A DNA stretch of 64,000 nucleotides, taken from Plasmodium relictum (taxonomy: Eukaryota > Apicomplexa > Aconoidasida > Haemosporida > Plasmodiidae). The notes beneath the pieces were generated by a model, which saw only the letters and a list, made by a program, of their open reading frames with translations, had not been told where the DNA came from and searched no databases. The stretch is from the NCBI RefSeq assembly GCF_900005765.1, contig NC_041685.1, positions 1,178,001-1,242,000 on the forward strand, read 5' to 3'. Positions 22,327 through 61,413 of this stretch are shown piece by piece. The stretch's first letter is position 1, and every line of letters starts with the position of its first letter. The translations under genes were made by a program, and so were the position numbers.

Positions 22327-24048
22327 ATGGGCAATAACGAAAATAATGCAGGTAATAATATGGTGCCTCAAAATTTTCAAATAAAAAAAAATTCCATGCA
22401 ACAAAAAAATGAAGCTAATAAAAAACCTTGGTATTTACAATTAGATAAAAATGATGTAACTTATTTTTTTGATTTGAGTGAAGAAGAAATTATTAGTGGA
22501 GGAAAAAGAAAAAAGCCTATAGATAATATTAAGAATAAAAAATTTGATAAGGAATTAAAAGAAAATTCATATAAAAAAATTGCTGTTGTAAAAAAGGAAC
22601 ATGGTAGTGAAAATGAAAATGAAGAAAAAAAAAAAGGTTTTGAAGAAAATGAGGAAAATAAAAAAGAAAAAAATAATGTTAAAATAAAAGAAATTGATAA
22701 TAATAATAATAATAATGAATCATTAATTTCAACATATTGTTATTATAGAGAAATAAATAGTATTAAGAATAACATATTGACAAATTCAAATATTTCAAAA
22801 TCACATAACCTATTTTTATACTTAAATATGTTTGCTAAATATTTGAACTGTGGTAAAAAAACCTCAGTAGATAAATTTTTAAGAAATTTTAATAAAAAAA
22901 GATTTAACAATAATAATAATAAAGGATTATTTAATAATTATAAGACTGATATATATGAAATTGGTATTTATGAAAAGAATATTTTTACATTTAAATTATT
23001 AAAAAAAAATAGAAAAATTGGAAATAAGATATATTACTTAAATGAAGAATTATTGGGTTTAGAGATTGACAGTTTTTTAGCAAAATTTTATCCAATAAAA
23101 TATATAGTTAAAGATAACCCTCTCATAAAGAATTATCAAAAACAAGTACACACTAATCTCTCTAGAGAAAAACCATTAACATTTGGTTTAGTAATAGACT
23201 TTGATTACATTCGAGAATGTTTTGAACAAAATGAAGAAAGATCATTGGAATTATTGGATTTTATAGTAATATTAGATAAAATTTCTGAAGTTTTTAGAGA
23301 AAATTGTTCAATTATTTATTTACATATATCAATATTCAATGAAAATGGTATTTCTGAAAGCATAAACATATATAGAAATACCTATGAATACTTATTCGAT
23401 GGATTAAAGTGTACAATGAAATTATTTGAAGAAAGAAATATAAATTTAATAACTAGAGTCCATCCTTTACATTCATATAGGAAAATAATTACTGATTCCG
23501 AAAATGACAATCCAATGATAAAAGATGTAAACAAATTATTTGAAAATAAAGAAATTGATAACATTCTATTAATAACTAATGAAATAAATGTAATATCATA
23601 TTGCTATAAAATACGTCATAGAATAAAATATAAAGAAAAAAATAAGCAAAATGATTATGCTATATCATATAAAAAGCCTGTTCTTGTTCTTTCTTTTCTT
23701 AATAATTTACCAATTAAAAATAATAAAATTCATCCTTATTTAAAACTGGATAAATTCTGTTATCTAACTTTTATTATTGAAAGTATATATCTTAGGTGTC
23801 AAGCAAAAAATATTGAAAAGATTGAAATGCAGAACAAAGAAAATATAGATTTAATTGAAAAATATATTCTAAAATATAATATAAAAAATAGAAAGTTAAA
23901 AAAGAAAATTAATGTTATATTATTAGATGATATAATGTATAAAATTAATTTTAAAAATCAAAATACAATAATAAAAGTTTCGAGTTTGCTAAAGAGGATT
24001 TTTTTGCCATTGTATTATCCAATACACTATTATATAAAGGAAAATTAA
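22327..24048 (+). CDS. conserved-looking protein of unknown function, possible NYN/PIN-like fold
   Basis: This intact 573-residue single-exon gene is the only clearly functional one within a roughly 25 kb gene-poor stretch. Residues 1-140 are low-complexity (Asn, Lys, Glu). Residues about 140-270 are moderately hydrophilic. Residues about 280-500 look globular, with FGLVIDFDYIRECF near 285-298, HISIFNENG near 338 and DNILLITNEINVISY near 409-423, then a basic C-terminus. An Asp at the end of a first buried strand plus a later ILLITN strand resembles the arrangement in PIN/NYN nuclease folds, but I cannot confirm the acidic triad, so this is a suggestion only. There is no signal peptide or membrane segment. 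The first ATG follows an A-rich leader and gives the longest frame. Confidence 0.85.
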   Translation: MGNNENNAGNNMVPQNFQIKKNSMQQKNEANKKPWYLQLDKNDVTYFFDLSEEEIISGGKRKKPIDNIKNKKFDKELKENSYKKIAVVKKEHGSENENEEKKKGFEENEENKKEKNNVKIKEIDNNNNNNESLISTYCYYREINSIKNNILTNSNISKSHNLFLYLNMFAKYLNCGKKTSVDKFLRNFNKKRFNNNNNKGLFNNYKTDIYEIGIYEKNIFTFKLLKKNRKIGNKIYYLNEELLGLEIDSFLAKFYPIKYIVKDNPLIKNYQKQVHTNLSREKPLTFGLVIDFDYIRECFEQNEERSLELLDFIVILDKISEVFRENCSIIYLHISIFNENGISESINIYRNTYEYLFDGLKCTMKLFEERNINLITRVHPLHSYRKIITDSENDNPMIKDVNKLFENKEIDNILLITNEINVISYCYKIRHRIKYKEKNKQNDYAISYKKPVLVLSFLNNLPIKNNKIHPYLKLDKFCYLTFIIESIYLRCQAKNIEKIEMQNKENIDLIEKYILKYNIKNRKLKKKINVILLDDIMYKINFKNQNTIIKVSSLLKRIFLPLYYPIHYYIKEN

Positions 24049-30000: not shown

Positions 30001-33000
30001 TACTCATTAAAATTTTTGGGGGCATATATATATATACACAAAAGAAGAAATAACAACTTTTATACAAGAGCTAAAATAGGCATTTTTTTATGAGGAGTAT
30101 CACGTATATATATCTTACTAATTAAGTGTAAAAAATATTATAAAATATTAAAAATTTTATTAATTGAAAGATTTATCTTTACAAAGTTAAAAAATATTTG
30201 ACAATATATACAACTTTTTTAAAAATATTTGCAATAATATTTCAGTAGTTTTTACAGATTTTTATAAATATTGAAAAATTATATATCATATATAAGCATA
30301 TTTTATATGGTAAATTATTTTTTGCTCTTTAATAATTTTGTTACATGAGCATAAAAAAAAAAAAAAGGAAAAAAAAAGAAATATTAAGAAAACTTTGTTC
30401 TATTTAAAAATTCAAAAATGGTGGTTAAGCTTAAAGGATAGTTAATGAATAACATAAATTTATTTTATCAAAATAAAATGTATTAAAAGAAATAATATTA
30501 AAATAAAACAAAATAATGATAATAACGTATTTTTAAGGTTAAATGATTTATGTATAAATGTAAAAAGAGTAATTTGTCTGATGCTACAAAGTAAAAAAAT
30601 AAACATATATATATATATATATATATATTTATTTATTTATTTATTTATTTGTATATTTATTGGTTCTATCTTATCCATAATTTTGTTCATAAAAATAGAG
30701 AAAAATAAACATATATTAATAATAACATAAAGATAATTAAGTTTTATTTATACAATACTACAAACAATTTCTTAAATATTTTAAATATTGAAAATAATTC
30801 AAAAATAAAGAAATACATCGAATTATTTACTCTAAAACATAAAAAGACATATTATTATGTTATATTTTAAATTTTAAAAAAAAATGTTCAATATATTTTA
30901 TTTTTAGATGGATTATTTTTTTCTTTTTTTTTCTATTGAAATATATAGACAAAATTAAAAATATATATTTAAAAATGATGTTTTTATTTTATTAATTCTT
31001 TGATAAGTTTTATGAATAAGAATAATTATTTATTCATGTATTAAATGAATTAATGAAACTTTTTTTTTTTAAATGTAATTATATAGAATCAATTTTTTTA
31101 TAAAAGTATGTTTTTCACAAAAATGTGAATTCTAGATAGCATCACAAATTTATTAAATATAAAATTAAAGATAATAGATGTATATATATATATATATAAA
31201 CAAAAAGTATTATGAACTAATTTTGTTTATCAACTAAAATTCTAAATCCTTATAAAGTTAATAAAGTTTACATTTGAATAAACATGAAGTATAAGACATA
31301 TTTGTTTTATACAAATTGCACTTATGAATATTTTTTTTTTGTTAAAAGTGAGAATTATTAAAACTCTTTTTATTAATAAAAAAATACTTTATTTAGTTAT
31401 ATAAATAATTATCTCACATGAATATATATTTTCAATTTAAAATTTTAAATTTTATTAAGTTTAATTATTAAAAATATGAATATGTTTTTATATGTATAAT
31501 TATTGCAGAAAAATCAAGGATTGTTTAAATAACTTATTAAAGTAATAAATATTTTGTTATTATAATTAAGATATATTTTTATTATTAATTTACAATTAAG
31601 TTAAAAATATATATAATAAAATATACTCCTATTTAAATATTTTTTAACTTTCATATATATTATAAATAAATTTTACTATAATGAAATATTGATTTTAATT
31701 TTTTTTTTTTTCTTTTTTATTATTGTAAGGAACATAAATTATTTCTAAATTATATATAAATTTTATTAATAAGATTAAATCTTTTAAGTTTTTTTTTAAA
31801 TTATAAGGAAAATGCTTCATATATAAATAAAATTTCAACCAGATAAATTATTTATTTAAAATTTACATAATATATCTAAATTTTTTTTTTTCTTATTTGT
31901 AATTTAAAAAAATTTTTTTTATTACTATATATATAATCAATGTCTAAGCTAAAATAATTATGAAACAGAAAATTTTCTAATTTTGTGAACAGAATATATA
32001 ATATGTTTTATGAAATGAATTTTTTTTTTTTAAATAAAATTACATAAAAGTATTTAATAAATATAAAAACAAATATAGTTTAAGAATTAAGTATATATAT
32101 AATAAGAAATAGAAATATTAATATTAATATAAAAGTTTAGAAAATGTAAAATATGTATATTTAAAGGAAGGAGCATTTGGCTAATTACATGGTGTTAGCA
32201 CAATTATTAAATACTAACCTTACAGAAGAAAGAAATACAAGAGAAAAGACAAAAAATCTTAAAATGTTATATGAAAATATTGATTTAGATAATATTTTTT
32301 TAATGAATATTAATAAGTGTAACAAAATACTTTTATGAATCAAATCATAATATAAAATATATTTAAATAGAAAAAATGTATAAAATATTTTACAACAAAT
32401 TAATTGTTTTAAGTTTTCTCGATAATCTTTCAATAAATAATAAAAAAAAAAAAAATAAAATAAATGAACATTCAGTAATAAATGAATTTTTTTATATGTT
32501 TTATCTTTTTAAAAGTTCATATTCTAAATATCAAAAGATTTAAAAAAAAAATGTAAAAATTATCATAATAGAACAATTTTTTTTCGTAGTGAAGATAGAA
32601 AAAAAAATAAAAATGTGCATATTATAATATTTTTTATGTAAAGTTAATTTAAAAAATTAAAAAAAGTAATATAGAAATAAAAAAAAATTAAAATATTAAT
32701 GATAAAATTACTTTTTAAGAAAAAATTATATAAGTCATCATAAAATTTAAAAACTTTGGTTGTAGATATATATGGTATACATAATACTTAAATGACAACA
32801 TTAAGAATAATAAATGATATAATTTTTTTTTTTTATCTTGTTTCCTTTAATAAAAAAATAAAAAAGAATTCATTTTTATGTTTTATTATACTTCTATACA
32901 TTATAACATTTTCTTTTCTTTTTGTTATTTTCTTTTCATTTTATTTGTAACTACATACTTTTTTATGGTTCTATAAAAATAACTTAAGCAAACAAAAATA

Positions 33001-34429
33001 TAGTACCTATAAATTGAAACATTGAATATTTGATACAGAAATCTTAATGAGATGAGAATTTGTTTTAAAATTTTTATTATTTACTAATTTTACAAATAAT
33101 AAAAAAAGATTATTCAATTTTTATTTACTTTAAATACTTTTTTTTTTTCTTTTATATTTTTCTTTACATACTATATAAAAAAATATATGTGATAAAACAT
33201 TTTTTCTATTTCTTTTGATATATATTTTATTTATCATATAACTTTTTTTAAATAATATTTCTTTTGTACTTGATTAAAGATAATAAAAAATTTCAGTTGA
33301 ATTATAATTTAAGAATAGAAATTTATCTTGTAAACATTTTCGTATTCTATGCAATTAAAATGAAAAAATAAAATGTTTTTGTATTTACAACATTAAGGCA
33401 AAAAAAATGTTAAATATGTTTTATAATTTGAAAAAGGAAATAATTTTGTGTAGTTTTATTAAGTTATAAATATACAATTAAATAGCATTATCCTTTACTA
33501 ATACATAATTATTTATTGTTAGAAGTTTTAAATATTTTACTACATAAGATATGAGCTTATGATTAAGTAAATACACCTATAAAAAATTTTTTTTGTTTAT
33601 TCATATTCTATTATAATATATAAAAGTAATAAATTTGTGATAAGAATTATGTTTTTTGAGTTAAAATATTTTTTTCATTTTCATATTAACAATTATTCTT
33701 AGATTTTTTCTTATATATTCATGTATATTTTTACGTATATTTTTTTTTTTTTAGAATAATTTAAATTATTTTAAACTCTTATGACCCATTTTAGTTTTAA
33801 AATATTACTTCTTTTTATAATTTTTTCTTTTGAAGTCTCACTTTAAGAACATTTAATAAAAAAAAAATATTTTAATAATAAAAAATTTTTAAACTAAAAA
33901 AAGAGTATTAAGAAGAAAAAATATATTTTTTATATAAAAAAAAATTTATATTTGTATTTAAGTTTAAAAGTCTTAATGCATTCCAGTATTTGTTATTTAA
34001 AATAAATAAGAAATAAAAATAAAATAAAATAAAATACATATATAGAGTATAATTTTAACGATATAAAGGAAATTTTTTTTTTTTTATTATTGTTGTTTCA
34101 GAATAATTTATCTTACTCTTCTTGTATTCATCCATTAACATTTTTATATTTATTTCATTTTTTTCTGTTTAATATTTTAATATTGATATAATATTAAAAG
34201 ATAAATTATTGAATAATAAAATATTTGTTTGTAATCATTTGTCTGTACTCAATTTTTTAATTCAAATAATATGAATTTTTATTTAGTTAGTTAAATCAAG
34301 TATAATTTAATAACTGTAAATTATTTGTTATACATTATATTTTAGTATACAAATATACATATATAATTATTAAAAAAAAAATAAACAAACAAAAATGAAG
34401 AATGATTTTCAATTTTAAAATATTTAATA
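24049..34429. other. 10 kb gene desert
   Basis: No convincing exon, RNA gene or retroelement piece was found on either strand. Features are homopolymer tracts, (TA)n near 25020-25040, 28333-28357 and 30605-30628 (the last followed by an ATTT array to about 30650), and a C-terminal-Cys ORF at 32185-32433 (minus, 82 codons, hydrophobic) that I do not trust. A Plasmodium centromere (about 2 kb, almost pure AT) could be hidden here, but no stretch stands out by eye. Confidence 0.5.
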
Positions 34430-34600
34430 GGGGGGCCCGGAGCCCCGGTTAGGGTAGTAGAACCAATTGCGACAGTTCCCAAACGGCATTGGCTCGAACC
34501 CCGGACCCTTGCCGACCTAAATTTTGAATTGAGTTACCGATAAAGATTGATACCTGCAATGTTCCAAACAAGGTATCATCCTCAAGGTTTTAACTTACAT
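34417..34600 (-). ncRNA. GC-rich structured RNA candidate with Pol III type-2 promoter elements
   Basis: An abrupt GC-rich island (34430-34585) stands in very AT-rich DNA and has no open frame. On the minus strand it contains GGTTCGAGCC (34500-34491), a perfect B-box, and about 30 bases before it TCGGTAACTCA (34540-34530), an acceptable A-box. A TTTT run at 34420-34417 would terminate Pol III just past the G-run. Visible structure includes an 8-bp stem TGATACCT/AGGTATCA (34548-34578) with an inner TGTT/AACA pairing, a CCAAT..ATTGG stem (34462-34492), and GGGGC/GCCCC near the other end. It does not fold as a tRNA: the bases flanking the B-box loop do not pair. It could be a GC-rich ncRNA of the RUF6 kind or a tRNA-derived SINE-like unit. 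Strand and ends are predicted. Confidence 0.5.
34548..34578. other. perfect 8-bp hairpin within the GC-rich island
   Basis: TGATACCT at 34548-34555 and AGGTATCA at 34571-34578 are exact reverse complements around a 15-base loop. TGTT and AACA inside the loop can extend the pairing. It lies at the predicted 5' end of the minus-strand transcript. Confidence 0.85.
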
Positions 34601-36224
34601 CATTATACAAATTATATATATATATATATATAATACTTTTTTGTATTTTTATAAGATTAAATAAAAAAAAGTAAATTTTTTTTAAAAAAAAACATTTTTT
34701 TTTTTTTTTATTAAATCATTATCTAATTGGTTTCATTTTCTGTATCATTATTTTTTACCCTCTTTTTAAGTTATAAAGTTCTTTTCCTTTTTCAATAAAA
34801 ATTTTTTTTATTAAAATAAATAGTTTTACTCATTTTGAAAACGAAAAAAATCAACAATAAAAGTTTGAGAAGTGGTAAGTTTTATAGTTTCTTTTTAGAA
34901 AGATTCAAAATGATGTGTGAATTTTAACTTGAACTATGTTATTAATATATTTTAAAACAATTTTAATGTAAGCATAAAAATTATAAAATTAACACAAATT
35001 TTTCTTTTATATTTGTACATAATTTATGATATGAATTTCATATTTTCATATCATTGCAAATATATAGATAGGCAATTTTTATAATAAAATAATATATCAA
35101 AAATATAATATAAATATATATCACAAAAAAATTTTGAGAAAAATATAGCATTTTCAGCAAAAGTTACACTATTTGAATAATATTTCTAACTATTTTAAGT
35201 ATCTAATATTATATTATGAAAAAGTTATCTATTTACATTGTAATAAATAGGATGAAAATGAATTCACAGTTCATAATATAGATACAATATTTAAATTTAC
35301 TTTAATTAAATTTAAAAATTATAGTTTATAGAAATATTTGCTTTTCCTTATTAAATGAAAGCAAATACTATTTTATATAATAAAGATATCATTTAAAAAA
35401 ATAATACAATAAATATTTCGAAGAAAATTTGGTGCTAATTAAAAATGAAAGTCGATAACGAAAAAATATGAGTAATATATAATAATTAAAAAACTGACAT
35501 TCCCATAATTATAGTATTATATATATATACATATTAATTTATAGTTATTTAAATCAATATTTATATGAAAAATGTTTAAAATTTTAAATAAAATTACATC
35601 ATTTTAAAGAATTTTAAAATAACTTTTCTCTTTTTTATGTCTGCACATAACTAGTATAAAGAAAAAAAAATTAAATAAAAAATTTTCATTAAAACTACTT
35701 GCATAAAAAAATAAATGAATTAACTATAAAAAATATAAAAAAATTAGAAAAGATAAATATAAAGAAATTTTTAAATAACAAATGTTGCTAAGACGTGAAC
35801 CACATAATAATTATTTTTTTTAAATGGAAAATTAATTTTATTAAAATATATGGATGATTAGAACTAATATTGCATAATAATTATTAATTAATATTTCTAA
35901 TACTTTATTTAATTCAATTAAATTTTTTTTTAGTTCTTTTAATATTTTTAAGTGGACAATTTTATTAATAATCCATGTTCGCATCATTTCACTTATATGT
36001 ATTCATATTTTTATAGTAATAATTATACGGTGATTTTCTAATAAATTTTATTTTTTTAAAAGTAAAGATATGTGATTTTTTTTTTTCTGATTAAAATTTG
36101 GGATATATTTCTTTTAAAAATCGACTCAAATTTATTTTAATTTAATGTTTGCTTAGATAAAAATTCCTTATATTGATTAAAAAAAAAAATAAAACGGTAA
36201 TTTCACGTGTGAATTACTGAAAAC
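34601..36224. other. AT-rich DNA, no feature seen
   Basis: No exon or repeat is recognised between the GC-rich island and the small two-exon candidate gene. Confidence 0.55.
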
Positions 36225-36619
36225 ATGGAGTGTTTTAAACTAAAAAATACTGTAAAATATTATTTTTATTGTTTATAAGAAAAATATTATAAAATTAGAG
36301 AAGAACTTTTCTTTCTCTTACATAAATATCCATTAAGAAATAAAGATTTATTTAGAAAATTAATGAAAAAAAATTTGTTATATTTATTCATATATGTTTA
36401 TATGCATATACTTTTTTTTTTTGCTTGCTTTTTTCTTATGTGCAGGAACAATGTAACCTCATCCAAAAAAGTGTTGTAGTTGAAAACAGTGATCATATGT
36501 TTGGTTTAATTTATTATCTTATATCATTTTTCGTTATGGCATTCTTTGAAATTCTTATGAGCATAAGAAAAAGGAGAGAACCTTCAAGAAACAGAAGAAA
36601 ATTTAGATATATTGGTTAG
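36225..36619 (+). CDS. candidate two-exon small membrane protein
   Basis: Exon 2 (36446-36619) follows a long T-rich tract ending TGTGCAG, a strong acceptor. It encodes 57 residues with ordinary composition: EQCNLIQKSVVVENSDHMFG, a membrane segment (LIYYLISFFVMAFFEIL) and a very basic end (RKRREPSRNRRKF). A plausible exon 1 is 36225-36251 (MECFKLKNT), ending at a GTAAAA donor and joining in phase 0 to give 66 residues. The positive residues after the membrane segment suggest a cytoplasmic tail. Exon 2 GC content is higher than in its surroundings. It may be the 3' end of a larger decayed subtelomeric gene rather than a complete one; no family is recognised. Confidence 0.45.
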
Positions 36620-39600
36620 GATCCGATTGATTAAAACATAAGATACCTTTTATTTAATACAAAAGTTAAAGAATGATTTAATATATAATATTAATTTTGA
36701 GATTTATTTTTAAAAAAATTTCTTTATTGTGTAAAAATGTTTATAAAAAAAAAAAAGCAAAAAAAAAAGAAAAATCAAGAAAAGAAAATATTTATTTATT
36801 TAACTAACTTATTATAAATATCGGGAAATTTTAATTCGAAAATAAAAATTTTATAGAGGAATTTCATTCGTTTGTAATTGTAAGATGAACTTAATTTATA
36901 ATTTTAAACATATATTAAAGCTAAAAATAAAAAAAGAAGTAAACGAGAATAAAAAGAATTGCTAAAAAAGGAGTTAAATGGAATTGAAATTTAAAGGAAT
37001 ATATCGAATAACTTGTAAAATGCCCTTATCGATTTCTAAAGAATTATTTTATAATTAATAAATGATAGTAACAAATGTGTTTTTGTTGTAAAATTATCAT
37101 AAGAAGCTTCAAAAAAAAAAGAAATTTTTTTTTAATTTTTAAAAAGTATTAAAACTTTTTTAATTAATTTATGTATTTATGTTTATGTGTTCTGTAAGAA
37201 AATTTATAAAAATTTTATAAAGATATTTTTGATAAATGATAAATACTTCTTAATAAGAGAACGGGGATACTTCCCATAAAAAATGAAGTAAAAGGTTTAT
37301 AAAAGTTTTTTCTTTTAGAATTATTAATAAAAAAAAGAAATAATTGACGTTAATATGATTTGGAAATAAAAAATATGTATTTTCATTAAGTATGAAAGAA
37401 ATAAAGGAACAGTTTATATTTTAAGTGCTTATAGAAGAAAATCAATATTTCTTTTAAAAATTATCATAGTTGATGAGCGGTTGATATTTTGATGTATTAA
37501 AATTAAAAAAATTATAATTATTTGTAAAAAGTAATTTAAATTTTAAAGAATTATTTTTTATAATTGTAATAATTTCCCCTTTATTTAAGCATTTTTCTAA
37601 GGTATTTATCATGAGAAAAATCATAAGCAAAGTAGTAAAATTAGTATTTTTTTTTTTCCATTCACGAAAAATCAGAGTTATCAAGAAATAAAAATAAATT
37701 GACTATTTTTTTTATTTTTTATTTTATTCTTTATTAATTTGTTTTTTAGTTATTATGATGTTTTAAAGGACATATTTTCTTCTTCACACATTATAGGGAA
37801 TGGAATAGATAAATTTTTTATTTTTATATAAATAAGTAAAAATAAAGTATTTTAGTATAATAAAGAAAGCTACTTAGCAAGTGCATAAGTTTAGAGATAA
37901 GAGAACAGTGAACAAATAGTAAAAAAGTTAACATTAAATGAAGTATTTAATATTTATGTACTATATTTTATATGTATATATTTAAACAAATACTAAGGCA
38001 TAGGAAAAAGGGTTTTTTAATTGAATATATTTGTTAATTTATATAATGTAGTAAAAATGAAAAAAGTAAATATAAAATGATACATTTGTGGAAATGGAAC
38101 TGAAACATAATGATTCTATTTTCATAAGGGTGCTACAAAGGTAGTAAAAATAATGATAGTATAATTTAATTCATAATTTAAATAATGGAAATAAATATTA
38201 ATATTAAAAATGATAATTATGAAGTAGTGGTAGGATACTTATTTTAGTATTAATAATAATAGTAATTAAGTTAATAGAAGGTGATTCTTTATAATGTAAA
38301 TTACACAATAAAGAGAAAATTATGATAAATGAAAAAAATATGAGGTAATTATAGTATTGGAAACTATTTTAATGATAATAATAATTGTTAAGGTGTAATT
38401 TATGTTATTATAATTAATATCAATTAAAGGAAATAAGAATATGTCAATTTCGTATATATGTATATAATTGTGTAATATAATTAATTATATAGTGAATAGT
38501 ATATAAGTAAAAAATAAGAAAAAAAAAAAAAAAATAAAGATATGAAAAGTGTAATATATAAAAAATAGGAATAATAAAAAGGTTTTAAGAAATTTTATGT
38601 ATTATTCTAGGGAATAAAAATAAGTATGATACATTTTAATTTATTGAAGTAAACTCTACATTCTTTTCTGAATAAAAAAATATAAAAAGAAGCTTGTAAA
38701 CTATGAATATTACATAAACTCTTTTTTCAAATAATAATTACAGATCATACATAATTATAAAAATAATAATTTTATCAGTAAAATATATTAACATTCATTT
38801 TTTTTTTCTTATCCCCTAAAATATAGTATATAAAAATTTAATAATAAAGGTTTGCATTAGTGTAAGAAGATAAAATTATTTTTTTACAGCATGTATATCT
38901 TTGAGAATAAATATCTCCCACTTTGAATAAAGATATTTAGTAAAAACTCATTTGACTGAAATTTTTTTTTCTTTTTTTCTATGTTTAATAATGGAAACAT
39001 GTAAATTAAGAAAACTCTGAATAAATATTATGCATCAATATTTTTTGTTTTTTTTTGTAATTTTTCATTACACAAATTTATCTTCAAATAAATGTAGATT
39101 ACTATAGTTAAGAAATGAAAAATATATTTTTGAATATTTTAATACATAAATTTTTCTATTGCAAATAAGTGTTCTTTAAGTAATTTTCTATCTTCCGCTT
39201 TTTAATTAAAATATATTAAAAATGTTAATATAAGAAAAAACAATTAAAGCTTATTAAACAGAATAAACAATTTCTATTCACTATATGAATTAAATATAAT
39301 TGGAAAATAAGATTTAAATTAGAAAGAAAATTAATATTTTCGATTGATATAATATTTGAAGATAGTAATTCGATTTTATCGTGTACTATCGAAAAAAGTA
39401 TATTTGAGTATTTAATCGAATAATTTGGGAACACTTTGTGTTATACTATTTATAAATAAATAATATTGTTGACCTATTCGACACTATATTGATCAATGAA
39501 TGGCAAATATATGCCCGCTATATACTATAATTAAGAGAAATACTAAAAAAAATTTCATATATGTAACACATGTGATATATAAAATATTTTTAGAAATTTT

Positions 39601-39692
39601 TTTTTTTTTTATACTTTGCATGTATTATCGATTCAAAATTTAAAGTACTATATATATAAATTGGAGATAAACCCTATTAAAGAATTCGATTA
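36620..39692. other. AT-rich DNA, no clear gene
   Basis: Minus-strand ORFs at 37454-37684 and 39225-39434 (70-76 codons) have no recognisable motif or splice partners. I see no retroelement piece here. Possible old gene remnants cannot be separated from chance. Confidence 0.45.
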
Positions 39693-39953
39693 ATGAATAA
39701 AAAGAAAAAAATAAGAACTAATAGTTTTGTAGTAAAAACTATTAAGAATGGAGTTCAAAAGAAAAGCATTAAACTTATTTATTTTATATTATATAGGAGA
39801 TTATACAAAGAGTGTACACAATTATCTATAATAAGCAGTTTTATAATAAATAAAATCATTAGAGACATCTCTAGATGCAATTTATTATTTTGCTTGATCA
39901 ATAACAAATCAATTGAACACAAAATTAATAAATCAAATATCAACACAATTTAA
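39693..39953 (+). pseudogene. coding-like relic, member of a decayed family
   Basis: This 86-codon open frame includes LYKECTQLSIISSFIINKI. A clearly related stretch occurs at 54.35-54.54 kb (LYKENIITIISDFIINK), with the same spacing and matching codons. Two divergent copies sharing a reading frame suggest remnants of a multicopy gene. No signal peptide, splice sites or known domain are visible. The ORF is basic and lacks a leader typical of exported proteins. Confidence 0.35.
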
Positions 39954-47821: not shown

Positions 47822-48118
47822 ATATCCAATTAGTAAATCATAACCCTATGTAATTAAACTATTTAATATGAAATCATTATTTTATTTCTCATAAGTTTTA
47901 GAACCAAATAATAAAATATATTTTTATCTCTATATATTTTATTATTATCTTAAATTCCGATTATTAAAGAAAATTTTATATAATTTAATAAAAAAAATTC
48001 TAAAGAAAATTCATAAAATATTCACATGCATATTCTCAAAAATCGTTAAGATATTACTATAAAAAAAATTTATGATTTATCAAACATCATAATTTTATAA
48101 TATGCATTACTCTTTTCT

Positions 48119-48739
48119 TGATTTATTAATTGTCCGCTTAATGACTTTGCTAGAATATTAAACAAACAAATTAATAAAGAGCATGTATAATTAAGTATAT
48201 GTTTATATATATATATATATATATTTGTTTTTATTATATATATAATGGTTTCTTATGATGCATAATATTTAATTTGAGTTAAATTTTACTGCATCTTTTA
48301 ATAGACATATTAAACTGTTATAAATGAGTTTTTATTTACAATAAATTAGCATCTTCTTTTAATTCAAAAAAAAAAATATACAAATAACAATTAATAAAGT
48401 CAAAACTTTAATTTATTCAGTGCTATTTTAAAAGTATACATTGAATATAACATAAACATTATTCGTTTTATATCTTAAGTTTTTATAAGTAAAAGTTAAT
48501 TCTTTATTTAGTTAGAAAAAAAACGTCAACTCCCCCCCAAAAAAAAAAAAAAAGTAATTTTAATTTTTTTTTTTAATTACAAAGATGATTATAAATAAAA
48601 ATAAACAAACAAAAAAAAAATAACTTTATATTTTTTTTTTTTTTTATAACTAGCGTCAGTGTATGGATAACTTGTACATACACGACTAGTAAACTAGCTT
48701 AGTGTACTACAAAAGGTTAATAACATATTTTATTAACCA
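48119..48739 (-). repeat. 3' LTR (LTR1 family) of the full element
   Basis: These 621 bases run from TGATTTATTAATTG to TTTATTAACCA on the plus strand. In the sense direction the LTR begins TGGTTAATAAAA and ends CCAATTAATAAATCA-like. It contains the CTAGT-rich head block, a TATAAAG box in the AT-rich section, a (TA)n tract near 48207-48223, and the shared AATAAAGAGCATG tail block. Confidence 0.9.
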
Positions 48740-48771
48740 TACTCCATCACTTCTGGAAGTAATGATATTAC

Positions 48772-51700
48772 TTATATTTTGCTCTCTTTGGCTTGTTTTA
48801 TAACTTCTAACCATTTTTGTATTTCTTTACTAATTTTTTTATCCTTATTACTCAAATCTTCTAATTGCGAAAAGTTATTTCTATCACAAATATCGAAATA
48901 ACCTCTCGGTTTTAATACATTTGTAATATCTAATTTTCTCTTACGATGGTCAATTACTTGTATTAAATTTCTCATTCGTTTTTCATAAATTTGATTAATT
49001 TTACTATTTAATAGTTTTATCCTTGAGAAAGGAATCTGTATTTCTTTGCCTCTATAATAAATGGGTATGTTTTTTAGATTCCCATTTTTGATATCTGTTA
49101 CTCTATGCGAGAATGACCAATGTGGTTTATATTGTCCATTTTCACTATAATGTTTCATTTGATTCTTCTCATATTCAGATAATTCATAAAATATAATATC
49201 TCTCACTTTAATCTCTTTATCTTTAATTAAAGGTTTTTCCTTTATTTTAATTAAATCTTCACTCGCACTTTTCCATCTATCGTTTAAATAAATAATTCTC
49301 ATTTGCTTAGTTGTTTCTGGTGTTATTTTTTAAAAACCTGAGCATATGTAATATATTCCGTGTACCAAAAAGTAAAGTATTTCTCGAATAGCATCATGAA
49401 GGGTGCTATTATATATTAAAATGGCATTTCTAACTATTTGTTCAAAAGGCAATTCCTCTTTTTCATATAACGTTTTAAGTATATAGTAGAGACTTTTATG
49501 AGAACTTTCATTTATATCGTTCCCTTGTGAACAATACGCATTACGCACTAGTATGATGTAATTTTATCTGTAATTCATTAATAATATAATCTTTAAATTC
49601 TTGACTCATATATATTGAACCTCGATCTGTTATAATACTTTTGGAACATCCAAATATAGGGATCCATGTACTTCTTATAATATTTACTGCATCCTTAGAT
49701 TTAAGAGCTTTATCTATCACATTTGTTAACATAAAACGTAAATAATGGTCAATTGCTACTTGTATATAGTATTATTTATCTTCTCAAGTTCTAAGACCTA
49801 CAATATCTAAAGATACCATATCAAATATACTAGGTTTTGATAATGCTTGATTTACATCTGGTTTTAGTTTTTTATTACACATTATTTGACATATTAGACA
49901 ATTTGAAACATAATCTTCAATTTCTTTGCTAATATTAGGCCACTAAAAGTGTTTCTGAATTTTCTTTAATGTTTTGTTCACCCTGCAATGTCCTACAAAC
50001 TTACTACTATGAAATCAATACATTAAATGGTTTCTATATTTTTCTGGTATATATAATTTTCCTGTTTTGTAATGAACTGGGAATTCATTTCTCCATACTA
50101 CATCTCTTGGTATATCATTCTGATTTTCTCGTACTTCATCAGCAATTTCTTGACAAGACGGGATATTATATATATCTTCATATTCTTCTGAAGGTTTATT
50201 ACAACATAATACCATATAATTTGGAAGATCGGTATCATCTTCTATTGATCTAGTGATCCAATCAGATAAACTATTTTGTACTCCTTCAATGTGTTCAAAT
50301 TCTAAATTAAATTCCGATAATCTCAGCTTCCATCGATACAATTTTCCGGTATTAATTGAATCCATTCCAATTAAACTTTTACAATCTGTTTTTATTAATG
50401 CTTTAGATCCTTTAATATAATAATCGAATGTTTCACAAGCTACTACTATGGCAAATAATTCTTTTTCAACTGTACTCCATCTCCTTTGAACATCGTTTAA
50501 CTTCTTAGATGTAAAGTGGATGAACTTAGTTTCACCGGTATCATTATTTATCTGAGTCAATACAGCTCCTATAGCATAATCTGAGGCATCAGTATAAATA
50601 GTATACTGTTTTCCCAACTAGAGAAATGACAGATAAGTTATTTCAGCCATTTTATTCTTAATTTACTCAAATACTTGTGAATGTTCTTCATTCCATTCGA
50701 ACTTTTTCTTTTTAGTCAACAAAGGAACTAATTTAGAAGTCCAATTTGAAAAGCTTCTTATATAATTCCTATAATAATTAGTAGCTCCTAAAAACGATCT
50801 TAATTGTTTCTTTGATTTAGGTCTTTCTGCTTTAATAATTGTTTCTATTTTATCTAATGAAGGTTCTATTCCTTCTCTATCTATTATTTGTCCTAAATAG
50901 GTAATAGAGGTTTTATATAATTCTCATTTTTCAATATTTATTCCAAGATTATTGTCCATCAACAATTTATAAATTTTTTTTAAAACATTATGATGTTCAT
51001 TTATAGTTTTTGTTAAAGTGATAATGTTATCAATATATACAACTACACAATTCTCTTGAATTAATTCCATAAAAATGTTTTCCACTATTTGAAATTGTGG
51101 ACTTGTTTTCAAATCAAATGGTAACACATTAAACACAAATGTACAACGTTTGGGAACTATAAAACTTGTATATTGCTTACTATTTTCTTCTAATGCAATA
51201 TTCCAAAAACCATTTTTGAGATATATTTTTGAAAACCATTTAGTGCCGTGAAATGTTTGAAATATATGTTTCATATGAGGAATAACATATAAATAATATA
51301 ATATAAATTTATTCAAATAGCGATAATATATAGTGTTTCTACATTGCCCATCTTTCTTTCTTACCATTACAATAGGTGAAATCCATTCAGCATTAACAAC
51401 TTATAGCACTCAATTGTAACATTTCTTCACTTAATGGTCTAGGGTTAAAGTGATGAGCTTTTCCTTGTACCTTAATAGAAACTTTGTATTTATCGTTGAG
51501 TTTCATATTTTTATTTTCCCAAAGTTTAACATTCGTTTCTAGTAAATTTTTCATTTTATCTTTATTCTTCTGATCATTTAAATCAGATTTTTCTATAAAA
51601 TTTTGTATAGTTTCTTGATTTGATTTTTCCACTTTTTCTTCTGTATTTTCAGCTTTAACTTCCATAAAATATGCATTCTTTTCATACTATTCTAGGATAT

Positions 51701-52195
51701 TAAGTCTTAATTGTCTCATTATCGTTATGCTAAGTAAAATTAGAGGTTTATTTTCCTATATGATTACAAACCTTATTCTAATAAAGATGAAATTGTTAAA
51801 TCAGTCTTTATATTTAATTCTTTTGCAGTATAAGTTGATGTAGTACTTACATCTGCTCCTGATCCTAGTAAGATATTTACTACATTTCCATTAACTTATA
51901 CTAATCGTCTTCTATACTTCTCAAAATCTTGATTGTCTTCACAGTATTCAATTATATTAACACAAGATATATTTTCTTCTGACTTTTCTGAATAATCATT
52001 GTCTTCAGACTCCTGATTCATCTCGCTCACTAATTTTATGAACTCTATTTCATTTTCTAGTAAATTATTCATCACTTTCCTTAGCTTGTTTTTCTTTGTA
52101 TCTTTCTTTTGCTCTCTCCTTTTGTTTTGTGATATATTCCATTTGTTTATCAAGATATTTTTGCATTTGACGGATTCTCTGTGGATTATTTTCAT
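48772..52195 (-). pseudogene. pol: pol (protease-RT-RNase H-integrase) of the Ty3/gypsy element, broken
   Basis: The pol frame overlaps the gag end by about 130 bases. The protease core (about 51895-51800) reads LLGSGAD, so the catalytic Asp of the DSG motif is Gly, and a stop precedes it. RT (about 51665-50700) carries VMVRKKDGQCR and LPFDLKTSP. Its first catalytic Asp is Tyr (KIYLKNGFW) and its YxDD box is YIDN. RNase H (50617-50200) is the best-preserved part, with YTDAS, VEKELFAIV and KTDCKSL. Integrase (about 50010-49330) retains an HHCC-type finger ending CLICQ, then VSLDIVG, IITDRGS and NESSHKSL as the DDE positions. A final domain (49302-48772) has the KPHWSFSHRV block of integrase C-termini. 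At least eight stops and several frameshifts are visible. Confidence 0.9.
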
Positions 52196-53100
52196 TTTTA
52201 AACGTCTTAACGTGTATATGATATATGTTATCAGTTATTATGCCTTTAATTCCATCTTCTTTATCTCTTATGACTTTGTTTTGACATATTTTTCCCAAAT
52301 GTCCTATCATATTACAGTTTCTATATCTCTCTTTTCTATATTCACAATTTTTTTTTAAATGTCCATCTTTAACACAACAATAGCATTTAATGGTAAGTTT
52401 ATTTTTATATTTTGCTATATCCCTATTATAATTTTGATTTACAACACATACTATAGCATCAGGTTCTACTTATCTCTTGGAGGTTCTTTTTATATTTATT
52501 GATACAGATGATAAGGCCTCCATAAATGTTTTCCCTCTTGGATAATAACCAGGTATCTGAACTAGATTTTCTTTTGGAACACGCCTCCTAGAATATCTCC
52601 ATAAATCATTTGTAGTAATACCATTGACCTCATTGAAACATAGGCAACTATTGCCATATATCAAACAATCTTTGATAAATGAATTTGTAGCTTCCTTTAA
52701 ACTTGAGTCACGCTTAGCAGTTACAAATTTTACTCTGTTCTATTCTCTCATCATTGTCCATAAGGATTTGTTTGGCTAGTTTAATTTTCAACTGCAACAT
52801 ATGCTTTATTTCCTTGTCTTTACACAACTTGGATATTTTTCTGGCATGAGTTCTTGATAACAGTGATTTCAATATTAAACAGGTTTCAATCTTTGTTAAT
52901 ATTTGCATCCTTGTCTTATTTTTGAATGTTTCAAACCTTAAATAATCATCTATTTCTTCCTCTTCAAATTCTGTTATTCCATATGGAGTTTTTATTTTAG
53001 TAAACTCCTCAGTTTCCTTTACTTAAAATATATATGTTTCATTGAGATTTACTATTTCTTCAAATGTCTCTAATCCAAGCCTTTTGATATCTTCTTTCAT
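52065..53100 (-). pseudogene. gag: gag of the Ty3/gypsy element (broken)
   Basis: The likely start is the ATG at 53100, 67 bases inside the 5' LTR (MKEDIKRLGLETFEEIVNLN). A TAA interrupts at 53025-53023, then the same frame continues to about 52735, where a frameshift occurs. After a second stop near 52470 the nucleocapsid follows. The first zinc knuckle is intact (CYCCVKDGHLKKNC, CX2CX4HX4C). The second (RNCNMIGHLGKIC) has Tyr where the first Cys should be. The protein ends in a Lys/Glu/Gln-rich tail at 52065. Gag would form the particle shell and bind the element RNA. The acidic N-terminal part has no other recognisable domain. Confidence 0.85.
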
Positions 53101-53167
53101 CTTGGGTTTGCCAATCTAGTGGGGTTCTGTTTGCGCTGGTCTCGAATTTCCTAATGTTGTCGCCAAT
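53101..53167 (-). promoter_or_regulatory. candidate tRNA primer-binding site and leader of the retrotransposon
   Basis: Immediately inside the 5' LTR the sense strand reads AT then TGGCGACAACATTAGGAA. A TGG within a few bases of the LTR end is the standard complement of the CCA end of a primer tRNA. The rest of this 67-base leader to the gag ATG is comparatively GC-rich. Which tRNA would pair is not determined. Confidence 0.5.
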
Positions 53168-53821
53168 TGATTTATTAATTGTCCGCTTAATGACTTTGCT
53201 AGAATATTAAACAAACAAATTAATAAAGAGCATGCATAAATAAATGTTCGTTTTTAAATATATATATATATATATATTTGTTTTTTATTATATATGTGAT
53301 TTCTTATGATGCATAATATTTAATTTGAATTAAATTTTATTGTATCTTTTAATAGACCTATTAATTGTTATAAATGAGTTTTTATTTACAAAGAATTACC
53401 TATTCTTTTAATTAAAAACATACAGACAAACTATAACAATTAATAAAATCAAGACTTTATATTATTCAATGTTGTTTCAAAAATATACATTTAATATAAT
53501 ATAAACATAATTCTTTTATCTCTTAAGTTTTAATAAGTAAAAATTAATTCTTTATTTAATTTTTAAAACATAAACGTCAACAATACAAAAAAAAAACAAT
53601 AATTTTAAATAAAAAAAAAAAAAAAAATTATTTAATTTATTATTAATTTTTTTTTTTTTTAATTACAAAGATGTATACAAACAAAAATAAACAAACAAAA
53701 AAAAATAACTTTATATTTTTTTTTTTTATAACTAGTGTCAGTGCATGGCTAACTTGTAACTACACAACTAGTAAACTAACTTAATGCACTATAAAAGGTT
53801 AATGACATCTTTTATTAGCCA
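53168..53821 (-). repeat. 5' LTR (LTR1 family) of the full element
   Basis: These 654 bases are directly alignable with the left LTR over their full length. The 33-base length difference appears to lie mainly in homopolymers and the (TA)n tract. The same TG..CA termini are present. In the sense direction it ends immediately before the candidate primer-binding site at 53167. Confidence 0.9.
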
Positions 53822-56938: not shown

Positions 56939-57071
56939 AATATGTTATTAACCTTTTGTAATACATTAAGCTAGTTTACTAGTCGTGTATGTACAGGTTA
57001 GCCATGCACTGACTCTAGTTAAAAAAAAAAAATATAAAGTTATTTTTTTTTTGTTTGTTTATTTTATTTAT
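56939..57071 (+). repeat. LTR1 head joined to reverse LTR2
   Basis: It starts TGGTTAATAAAATATGTT and runs 133 bases to the exact point where LTR2 begins, carrying the same GACTCTAGTTAAAA variant and the same junction sequence as the composite at 55.7-55.8 kb, in reverse. A 19-base LTR1 tail remnant (57596-57614) lies beyond the LTR2. Confidence 0.8.
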
Positions 57072-57595
57072 TGATTTATTAATTGGATATTCAAATACTT
57101 GGATAGAAGTAACGAATATCCAAGTTAATGAAGAGAAAGTTTTAGGACTCCTTTATAATTTTGTATTATAATTTCTATATATAATACAAAATTAATTAAA
57201 TCACTTTAAGAAAAATAAAAGTCTATAAAAGTTAAATAAAAATAAAAGCAATCCACTTGCTATCCTTTTCTTTTTCAATCTCTCTCCAAAAAAAAAAAAA
57301 AAATTCAAAAAAAAAAAAAATATAAAAAAAAATTTTGTAAAAATAAAAAAAAAAAGACATAATATAATAATAACCAAGATGTGTCTTAAAGAAAAAGCAG
57401 TAATTAGACACATTAAGTTCGTTAAGATTCTAGTATCTTGACTTTTTGCATGGAATATACTCTTAGAGAAGACATAATTAAGTTTTAAACAATTATTTGA
57501 TATTATGAAATTAACTACGAACATATGTATAAGTTTTATTAAGACAAACCTTAAACTGTATATTAATTAAGGGCAATGAGTTTATTCACTGACCA
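57072..57595 (-). repeat. solo LTR2, reverse orientation
   Basis: These 524 bases begin TGATTTATTAATTGGATATT and end TTCACTGACCA, the reverse complement of the LTR2 termini. It includes the block ATTAGACACATTAAGTTCGT shared with the 58.8 kb copy. It lies inside an LTR1 whose body is deleted. ORFs of about 100 codons across it are LTR sequence, not genes. Confidence 0.85.
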
Positions 57596-58111
57596 GCCGG
57601 AAATTAATAAATCACATATATAAATATATATTCCTTTGATTTGTTGCATGCTACTTCATATAAGGATTGGATTATTTCATCTAAACATATTTCCATTGTT
57701 AGGTTGTATTTATATTATAGAGTTTGCCAAATTATAGGATTGTATTGTATATTCTAAGATTTTCTATGATTTGGTAAACCCTACAATATAACTACAAGTA
57801 ATAAATAAGATAATATTTTCTAATATATCAGAATTTCGATTATTATTGATGGATTTTTCTAAATGTAGCACCTTAATATTTGTTCCCATAATTAAGAACT
57901 TGGACAGCTTAATTCTTAACTATATGCTGCAAGTTTGTACTCTTATCCATGGATAAAGTTGTTATATATTGTAAGCTTTAAATAACGAATAATTATGTAT
58001 TATACATGTCTTTTGATACTTTTTGAATATATACTATACTTCAAAATTAATAAGTAGAATGAAATTATTTCACAAGGATAATTCATTAGATTTAGATAAT
58101 TTATCTAATGT
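57596..58111. other. spacer between head-to-head LTR2 copies, with hairpin
   Basis: It begins with the 19-base LTR1 tail remnant. The remainder is somewhat less AT-rich than typical spacer and contains the 34-bp imperfect inverted repeat described separately. No coding frame is seen. Confidence 0.55.
57704..57797. other. 34-bp imperfect inverted repeat (hairpin)
   Basis: Arm 1 is 57704-57737 (TTGTATTTATATTATAGAGT...) and arm 2 is 57764-57797. The reverse complement of arm 2 matches arm 1 at 29 of 34 positions, with a 26-base loop. Four of the five mismatches are transitions. Confidence 0.85.
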
Positions 58112-59233
58112 TGGTCAATGATTAAATTCATTGCCCTTAATTAATTGGTTAATAAAAGCTATTATTAACCTTTTTCAGTACAATATGCTATGTTACTGTA
58201 CGTGTATATACAAGTACCCATTCTCTGACTGATTAACAAAGGATATTATCATTTTTGTAGTACACTAAGCTAGTTTGTTGTATGTGTATATACAAACTAA
58301 TATGTACTGACACTAATAAAAAAAAAAAAAAATATATATATATACACTTTTTTTTTTTGTGTTTGTTTATTTTTGTTTTTTTGAAATATTTTAAAAAAAA
58401 AAAATAAATAATTTTTTTTTTTTTTTGTGAGAAATTTTTAGCAAATAAAAATTTATTTATCTTTTATAAAAATAAAAGATAAAATTAATAATGTTTTTGT
58501 GATAATCAATGTATATTTTGAAATAACATTGAATAAGATAAATTTTTGACTTTATTAATTGTTATAGTTTGTATGTATGTTTTTTAATTAAAAGAATAAA
58601 TAATTCTTTGTAAATAAAAACTCATTTATAACAATTAACAAGTCTATTAAAATCGTAATAAAATTTTACTCAGTCATAAATGCTCTTTATTAATTTGTTT
58701 GTTTAATACTCTAGCAAAGTCATTAAACGGCCAATTAATAAATCATTAATATACAGTTTAGGGTTTGTCTTAATAAAACTTATGTATATGTTCGTAGTTA
58801 ATTTTATAATATCAAATAAGTATTTAAAACTTAATTATGTCTTCTCTAGGAGTATATTCCATGCAAAAAGTCAAGATACTAGAATCTTGACGAACTTAAT
58901 GTGTCTAATTACTGTTTTTTCTTTAAGACACATCTCGGTTATTATTATATTGTCTTTTTTTTTTATTTTTACAAAATTTTTTTTTATATTTTTTTTGGGA
59001 TGGATTCTTTTTTTTTTGGAGAGAGATTGAAAAAGAAAAGGATAGCAAATGGATTGCTTTTATTTTTATTTAACTTTTATAGACTTTTATTTTTCTTAAA
59101 GTGATTTAATTAATTTTGTATTATATATAGAAATTATAATACCAAATTATAAAAGAGTCCTAAAACTTGCTCTTTATTAACTTGGATATTCATTACTTCT
59201 ATCCAAGTCTTTGAATATCCAATTAATAAATCA
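58112..59233 (+). repeat. LTR2 interrupted by nested LTR1
   Basis: LTR2 runs 58112-58145 and 58751-59233 (517 bases combined, with the usual TGGTCAATGA start and CCAATTAATAAATCA end). The flanks AATGT (58107-58111) and AATAT (59234-59238) are a probable 5-bp target duplication with one change. The interrupting segment is a complete LTR1. Confidence 0.9.
58146..58745 (+). repeat. solo LTR1 nested in LTR2, with TTAAT target duplication
   Basis: This complete 600-base LTR1 runs from TGGTTAATAAAAGC to CCAATTAATAAATCA. It is bounded by an exact 5-bp duplication TTAAT (58141-58145 and 58746-58750), the clearest insertion footprint in the window. Its head is unusual: a block of about 70 bases (58160-58230) is repeated in diverged form at 58242-58314. 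Confidence 0.93.
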
Positions 59234-61413
59234 AATATCTTAATCTTTATTATACTCCAGCTTTTGTGGGTACTCAATTGTACGTTTCGTCAAAAACAGC
59301 TATATATACACATATATTTAAGTTTATTCATTTATAAATTCTTTATATTATTTATTGAAGATGAAATTCATAAATAAGATAAACATATCCTAGAGTTACC
59401 AAGGAATAACTAGTGCATTGAATATGCTACGATTTTATGATAAATTCATAAGTTAAATTTAATTGTTAGTATAATATTACAATTATACAATATTTTTTAT
59501 TCATCATTCACATATTATAAAATAATCATTGACATAATTTATAAAATCAAGACTTTTCAATAAAATTATTACAATATTTTTACTTGTAAAACTCTAGTAC
59601 CAACTCGATTATGTTCAGAAATAAAATATATGTACAAAAAGAAAAAAAAATTCATAAAAATAATAGATTATTTCAATTTTTAAAAAACATTGTTTTCAGA
59701 TAAGTTGCATGACTTTTAATAAAGTGTTTATTATATTTAAATGTTACAATTTTTAAATAAATTACCAATTCATATTTTATGTCTTTACCTAAATCATTTA
59801 CTTTGTTTAATTTACTCCGTAAAATAAATTTAAGTATAAAAGATAATAATTAATTTATTAGTAAGTAATCCTTGTTGCTTCTTTACAATTATATAATATT
59901 CACTTATTTCAGTGTACTATCTAAAAAAAATATATTAATATAGTATGTCAATTTTTAAAGTATTTTAAGTAATAAGTTTTTTATATCATAGTAAATATAA
60001 GCAAGGATTTATAGGAATAGATGAAAGAAGAATATTATAATAAAATACTTTAACACTTAAGTAACATTTTAAGTTTAATTTCAAATAATAGTTAAATAAA
60101 TAAAAGTATAAATAGTAACTTACAGTTTTGGTAGAAATATAAATTTATTGATAACTTATATAAATAGCACTTATTTTTTTAATAAAAATAAAATTTCTTA
60201 ATTACAATGATAAATTATATGCTATTTTCTGAGGGCAAAGAAACGTTCACTTATCTTTTTAATAAAATTAATTTTTTCTTTTTTTTCTATTTTATTTATA
60301 TATTCAACTGTTCAAGTATGAAACTTTTGGAATTTCTTTTTATTTAAACAAAAATCATAATTAACATTTTACATCTCATAAAAATTGATACATATTGTAT
60401 TTCTGGGTTAAACACTTTTTTATTTTGGAATAAAACATTTAATATAACATATATGAGAAAGCAAAAAAATGAAATAATTCATTTGCAATATTATAGAAAT
60501 CATTTTTACATGTTTTTCACAATTCACAAAATCTTTCATCATCATGAAAAGCTATATTCAAAAAAATGTTTTTTTTTTCAAGATGAGAAGTAAATTAACG
60601 TTACACTATAAAATTGGAAAATTATTATAAAAATTAAAAATATTTCTAATGAAAATTTTTTAATACATATGATGAATTGCAATACATGTAGTTAATAATA
60701 ATCTTAAATTTATTTTAAATAATAGTAAAATAAATAAAATTTATTTATAAAGAATTTATAATTCTGTAATGAGGTTAGATATCCTTAAATAGTGTAATGA
60801 TAATATGAAAATTTTGATAATCATAGAAAAAAAAAATAAATAAGGATGATAAATTAATAAGAGTGTTTCGTCAATTAAAAATTAAAGGAAATCAAATTAT
60901 AATGAATCTTTCTCTTTTGTATATAAATAAAATTTTTAATATAATAAAATATTTTTATGCAAAAAAATAATTGTTTATTTTGATTGTATAGATATAATAA
61001 TAGTTATTATAAAATCCTTGATAAATTATTTTTTATGGTTATAATAGTGAAAATTAAGATACTAATAATAATAATTATAATACTCTATGAAAAGAATTTT
61101 AGTTGTATTTACGGAGATAACAATAGTTTTTATAATTAAATGATATAATATTACAATTAATATATATATGTATATATAAGAAAAATATTGCTTTTATTAA
61201 AAAAAATTAAAGTGATAATTTAAATCAATATTTTAAACTATATGAACAAATAAAAGTAATATCGTGTTACAAATTTTCTTTATATATATATAAAGAAAAT
61301 ATACAAAATAAAATATTTGTTAAATGAATTAAAGTAAAAAGATTGTATAGTGTTATTGCATTCATTCATCATCTTATTGTTACCAAATAGCATACGTTCA
61401 ACGATCAGTTGTG
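59234..61413. other. AT-rich DNA right of the retroelement cluster
   Basis: No intact exon. A mildly GC-richer stretch at 59255-59640 may be old coding sequence (minus-strand NIIELVLEFYK near 59610), but this is too weak to call. Confidence 0.45.

Follow-up and report, generated by a model that had tools for sequence, protein, structure and literature searches.

What does a short GC-rich island encode when it stands in an otherwise AT-rich stretch of a malaria parasite genome, and from which strand would it be read? The island lies in a window of 64,000 nucleotides from Plasmodium relictum (contig C7:1178001-1242000; positions without a contig name are those of the window). The initial annotation had described it as an isolated, structured element transcribed by RNA polymerase III (Pol III) from the minus strand, possibly an avian counterpart of RUF6 or a SINE-like unit. 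Immune evasion in Plasmodium falciparum has been linked to GC-rich Pol III RNAs, and the candidate bears on counterparts outside Laverania. RUF6 is presented, in the available portion of its description, as a 135-nt RNA with more than 50% GC and with A and B boxes, conserved only in Laverania (PMC9670795), and a second source, likewise available in part, has it conserved throughout Laverania (PMC6974570); in the open-licence literature, we found no paper joining RUF6 with P. relictum. According to the analyses below, a Pol III-type noncoding RNA gene is still the best reading: we consider it close to an even chance that the island is a plus-strand, structured small-RNA gene of no known family, present in two copies. 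Its main rival is a decayed tRNA-like relic, and the other chief alternative is a gene on the minus strand.

Composition and duplication of the island

A 91-nt scan of the window placed its top GC peak at the island (63%, start 34428; runner-up 46%), where it had been reported. The GC-rich core (34430-34520, 63% GC), a candidate 5' domain with an internal promoter on the plus strand and a fold that lacks conservation between copies, exceeds the 50% GC that characterizes RUF6. The island has no long reading frame, in keeping with the annotation: no stop-to-stop frame of at least 100 amino acids in the window's ORF list overlaps it. It is solitary, surrounded by a gene desert, with the end of contig C7 ~75 kb away. 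From the ORF that stops at 24048 to the one that starts at 48772, a single frame (32185-32508) is listed; this stretch of ~24 kb (24049-48771), seemingly long for Plasmodium, separates the last core ORF from a retrotransposon zone, and spliced genes are possible there.

The search of the own genome (22.60 Mb, 514 contigs; copy counts are lower bounds) with 34425-34600 as query retrieved one further place, C14:110402-110578, 88% identical. A pattern of 33 places allowing up to three mismatches found the C7 and C14 places only, and its reversed control found 0. The duplicated segment extends over 34254-34716 (~460 bp, ~85% identical; by BLAST, 34251-34721 at 85.5%). The query 34200-34800 yielded the two copies plus 62 other matches, all of them short, AT-rich and without the GC core, and no duplicate of 34800-39800 was found at E 1e-20. 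Because the AT-rich flanks are common to the C7 and C14 copies, the pair represents a segmental duplication, not contamination or two insertions. The island is therefore isolated within the C7 desert but has a second copy on the large contig C14, and the proposal of a SINE-like unit is not borne out, as the two copies found share their flanks and do not form a family of many dispersed copies with independent flanks.

An origin of the segment from a Ty3/Gypsy long terminal repeat (LTR) was also considered and rejected, as it showed no match to three LTR-like repeats from the window; in the accessible part of one report, the LTRs of P. gallinaceum measure 459 and 469 bp, a length resembling that of the segment, and those of the most complete P. 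relictum element 253 and 257 (PMC5880244). As a separate observation, a broken Ty3/Gypsy element with reverse transcriptase and RNase H pieces lies at 48118-53581 between a pair of direct LTR-like repeats that share 86% identity, further related fragments reach up to ~59 kb, and an inverted repeat with 497 aligned bases at 94% identity lies at 57071-59234 (57071-57567 versus 59234-58745).

Divergence between the copies and likeness to known RNA families

Conservation is unevenly distributed along the duplicated segment. In the better-kept block (34413-34706), changes affected 6/204 AT sites versus 13/122 in the left flank (34254-34412; p=0.006) and 18/90 GC sites versus 7/14 (p=0.038), the left flank also carrying two alignment gaps; these and the following conservation p-values are descriptive, because regions and block limits were picked after the alignment had been viewed. 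The most conserved part comprises the hairpin described below and the AT stretch to the right of the core (9/178 changed, p=0.005), with 34601-34706 little altered (4/106). The GC core by itself is not clearly more conserved than the flank at the sequence level: overall, both diverged equally (15/101 versus 20/136, p=1.0), and 13/58 of its GC sites changed versus 7/14 in the left flank (p=0.051). From C7 to C14, the differences in the block run 18 GC-to-AT versus 2 AT-to-GC, whereas the left flank is balanced at 7 versus 7 (p=0.017), which probably reflects GC loss from the C14 core or else GC retention in the C7 core. Conservation begins ~17 nt before the GC core and runs on downstream, and so fits what is expected of an internal promoter; the conservation to the right of the core would equally suit a promoter lying upstream of a gene on the minus strand.

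Searches for known families yielded nothing credible at the island, in agreement with the initial view that it is neither a tRNA nor a signal recognition particle (SRP) RNA. ARAGORN detected no tRNA at the island and Rfam gave no match there at cut-off; at E 10, 34300-34700 returned eight chance-level rows (E 0.64-9.4) and no tRNA covariance match, and at E 5 the surroundings of the C7 copy (33900-36500) had no match. RF01585 and RF01583, tried as RUF6 accessions, are actually snoR07 and snoR01. Elsewhere in the genome, the SRP RNA model matched C13:1243505 (E 5.9e-15, 64.2 bits, under the cut-off of 70), and the RNase MRP model weakly matched C2:403415 (E 5.4e-4, 23.7 bits, cut-off 50). The latter locus (L052, C2:403415-403676, plus strand), in which MRP-like conserved boxes can be recognised, may encode an RNase MRP RNA that scores short of the Rfam cut-off, a call that is tentative because, at E up to 10, sub-cut-off matches also arise in control genomes (13/14 for the MRP model, 10/14 for the SRP model).

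Pairwise comparison with tRNAs brings in the main rival. The plus strand of the C7 core aligns over its full length with nuclear tRNA-Leu(TAA) with a score of 32, which 0/60 plain shuffles and, against 39 nuclear tRNAs, 6/1000 dinucleotide shuffles equalled; this likeness, the equal divergence of GC core and flank, and the excess of GC-to-AT changes in the block would suit a non-functional relic that began as a GC-rich Pol III sequence, tRNA-like or otherwise and perhaps derived from tRNA-Leu, and that was duplicated and is drifting AT-ward. On the other side, the C14 copy has no tRNA likeness (380/1000 shuffles as good on plus, 567/1000 on minus), no tRNA covariance match appeared even at E 10, and conservation is seen in the hairpin as well as in the AT portion of the block. 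We regard the relic as unlikely, while giving it real weight. Against apicoplast tRNAs, the C7 core was unremarkable (137/1000 shuffles as good on plus, 763/1000 on minus).

Promoter boxes, folding and strand

Box matrices were derived from this genome's own nuclear tRNAs (28 distinct ones), with a second set from 39 distinct tRNAs; the 39 were taken as nuclear by removing, from the fetched loci, those on contig C514, which we take to be apicoplast (66 tRNA matches were listed in all). On the plus strand, the A-box candidate TAGGGTAGTAG (34450-34460) scores 5.5, below all 28 tRNAs (9.2-15.8), is weaker than every tRNA with the 39-tRNA matrix too, and drops to -2.4 in the C14 copy. The B-box candidate GGCTCGAACCC (34491-34501; AGTTCGAACCT in the C14 copy) scores 11.0 with the first matrix (tRNA minimum 13.1) and 11.1 with the second (minimum 10.4). 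Together, at a gap of 30 that is close to the 32-44 of the 28 tRNAs, they total 16.5, a score that no other A/B pair in the window reaches on plus or minus, and the plus strand has the A and B boxes at workable spacing that type 2 Pol III promoters combine. In ten sources free of tRNA loci (124,735 bases; L059 repeats part of the window), only two pairs reached a B box of at least 10.4 with an A box above 5: that of the C7 island and a second A/B pair near snoR16 on C14.

The minus-strand boxes of the initial annotation fared unevenly. Its B box, GGTTCGAGCC, is present (34490-34500; reported as 34500-34491) and is the same near-palindrome as the plus B box, with one late C being T in the C14 copy; as the core (TTCGAG/TTCGAA) reads almost alike on both strands, it cannot fix the strand. 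The A-box-like element TAACTCAATTC does occur at 34536-34526, at a gap of 25, but is weak, scoring -0.9 with the 28-tRNA matrix and 0.6 with the 39-tRNA matrix. The minus pair totals 10.1, and in the C14 copy the same (plus) orientation reaches 10.4 versus 3.5 for the opposite. Dinucleotide shuffles of the C7 island were as good in 3 of 500 cases for the plus pair (0.006) and in 18 for the minus pair (0.036); for the C14 copy, the counts were 12/500 in the same orientation and 83/500 in the opposite one. The TTTT proposed as minus-strand terminator is found beyond the boxes, at 34420-34417 (AAAA on plus), just within the conserved block. Downstream of the plus B box, a TTTT at 34522-34525, present in both copies 20 nt past the box, is a possible weak terminator, and a T6 run at 34637-34642, identical in both copies, is a possible main terminator on read-through; the evidence from such runs is weak because they are common in so AT-rich a genome.

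As for structure, the claimed perfect 8-bp stem exists: 34548-34555 pairs with 34571-34578, as the upper stem of a hairpin at 34530-34597. The stretch 34530-34603 is exceptionally stable (z -2.98 on plus, -2.44 on minus), but the fold of 34425-34600 is ordinary (z -1.61 on minus, -0.69 on plus). In the plus fold of the C7 hairpin, 6/6 substitutions are unpaired (permutation p 0.0018), versus 4/6 in the minus fold (p 0.089), these two being among six structure-conservation tests run. No conservation of the core fold was found in the plus folds (p 0.25 and 0.45), and consensus folding of the two copies gave no signal in five tests, with 8.8% to 45.6% of simulated divergences as good; an alifold-derived p of 0.0015 was circular and was set aside.

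A minus-strand Pol III gene, spanning ~34600 to 34417 and preceded by a conserved region at 34601-34706, would explain why conservation stops right at the minus TTTT and why that upstream region changed so little; the minus strand also folds better over 34428-34641 in C7 (z -2.9 versus -2.25), has the better C7 core energy (-37.0 versus -29.9 kcal/mol), and matches the tRNA-Lys T arm at 16/17 positions (29/1000 shuffles as good). Opposed to this are the low scores of the minus A box and of the minus pair in both copies, the 12/15 substitutions that fall on pairs in the minus C7 core fold (p 0.95), unexceptional core z values for either strand (plus 0.49, minus -0.6 in C7; plus -1.36, minus -0.51 in C14), the better plus fold of C14 (-29.5 versus -23.8 kcal/mol), and an orientation opposite to that of snoR16. 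We judge a minus-strand gene rather improbable. Box scores, tRNA likeness, hairpin conservation and snoR16 orientation lean to plus; the minus strand is probably wrong, and the candidate gene probably lies on the plus strand.

The C14 neighbourhood supplies that orientation. The copy is flanked by a cyclin-like gene (assigned by eye from the sequence; Pfam had no match for the exon tested) and an exon of a NIF-type phosphatase (Pfam E 3.7e-6). Rfam identified plasmodium snoR16, a C/D box snoRNA, near the copy (93.1 bits, cut-off 70; L003 4263-4387, minus, corresponding to plus in the window), and the C14 copy lies ~0.5 kb upstream of it in that same orientation. Between them is the second A/B pair (A 6.6, just under the lowest of the 39 tRNAs at 7.2; B GGATCGAATCC 13.7, within the tRNA range; gap 43), and a long T run directly follows snoR16. 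TTTT runs occur between the second B box and snoR16, and therefore Pol III would have to read through them for both to form one transcription unit. As an observation in its own right, snoR16 with its upstream A/B pair and following T run (L003 4263-4640, C14, minus) may be a Pol III-transcribed snoRNA. The second C14 unit has two other short, AT-rich matches to its first 46 bases and no likeness to the island (18.0, where shuffles average 18.9). Across the snoR07 and snoR01 loci of 3 kb, a single B-like site exceeded 7 (L057, 7.2; A -4.8).

The plus-strand gene that we prefer would be read by Pol III from an internal promoter made up of the A box at 34450 and the B box at 34491, with an RNA start near 34428-34432. 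The RNA may end at the TTTT of 34522-34525, giving ~95 nt, or on read-through at the T6 of 34637-34642, giving ~210 nt that would comprise the GC-rich domain and the hairpin; the first of these might terminate the RNA ahead of the conserved hairpin. Segmental duplication links the two copies, the C14 one lying in line with snoR16 in an apparent small-RNA locus. Since this relative sits with a snoRNA, a role as a nuclear or nucleolar structured RNA may tentatively be suggested.

Comparison with known systems

Box H/ACA snoRNAs have two hairpin domains, an H box (ANANNA) in the hinge and an ACA near the 3' end. By eye, the C7 island has, on the plus strand, a GC-rich 5' hairpin, a hinge, a 3' hairpin (34530-34597) with an internal loop, and an ACA (34597-34599) ~16 nt below the upper stem, and its C14 copy has a snoRNA neighbour, as a pseudouridylation guide might. 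Unlike these snoRNAs, the hinge shows by eye no ANANNA H box in either copy, the ACA is AUA in C14 with an altered pocket, and Rfam gave no match, all of which make an H/ACA-like snoRNA improbable. With tRNA-Leu-like Pol III genes, the island shares the near-tRNA box gap of 30 and, in C7, a weak full-length likeness to tRNA-Leu(TAA), yet it differs from tRNA-derived genes in matching no tRNA model and in its dissimilar C14 copy.

Like RUF6 of P. falciparum, the island is short, GC-rich in an AT-rich genome, of similar size range and equipped with Pol III-type A/B boxes, and its C7 copy lies near a contig end, but membership in that family of activators of variant surface genes is very improbable: RUF6 has 15 copies tied to var genes, versus at least two here, one of them between the cyclin-like and NIF phosphatase genes and beside snoR16; the available part of its description confines its conservation to Laverania (PMC9670795); and no RUF6 row appeared in Rfam at E 10, its presence in Rfam not being established. 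The comparison draws on descriptions of RUF6, and kinship is unsupported. A speculation that we hold quite doubtful is an independent parallel to RUF6: an avian-Plasmodium Pol III RNA gene outside Laverania, born beside snoR16 in a Pol III cluster and copied to the gene desert ~75 kb from the contig end, with the C7 copy keeping its GC-rich form.

In ring-stage P. falciparum treated with MgCl2, four snoRNAs fell along with tRNAs and RUF6, as stated in the accessible part of one study (PMC11208047), and Pol III snoRNAs in Plasmodium are therefore plausible. A possible parallel on our side is the C14 locus. Yeast snR52 is the type of a Pol III-transcribed snoRNA with A/B boxes in its leader. The island differs from it in being no recognised snoRNA and the C14 unit in being putative, but at the C14 locus, too, snoR16 is preceded by A/B boxes and directly followed by a T run, an arrangement hinting that in Plasmodium a C/D snoRNA might be driven by a Pol III promoter.
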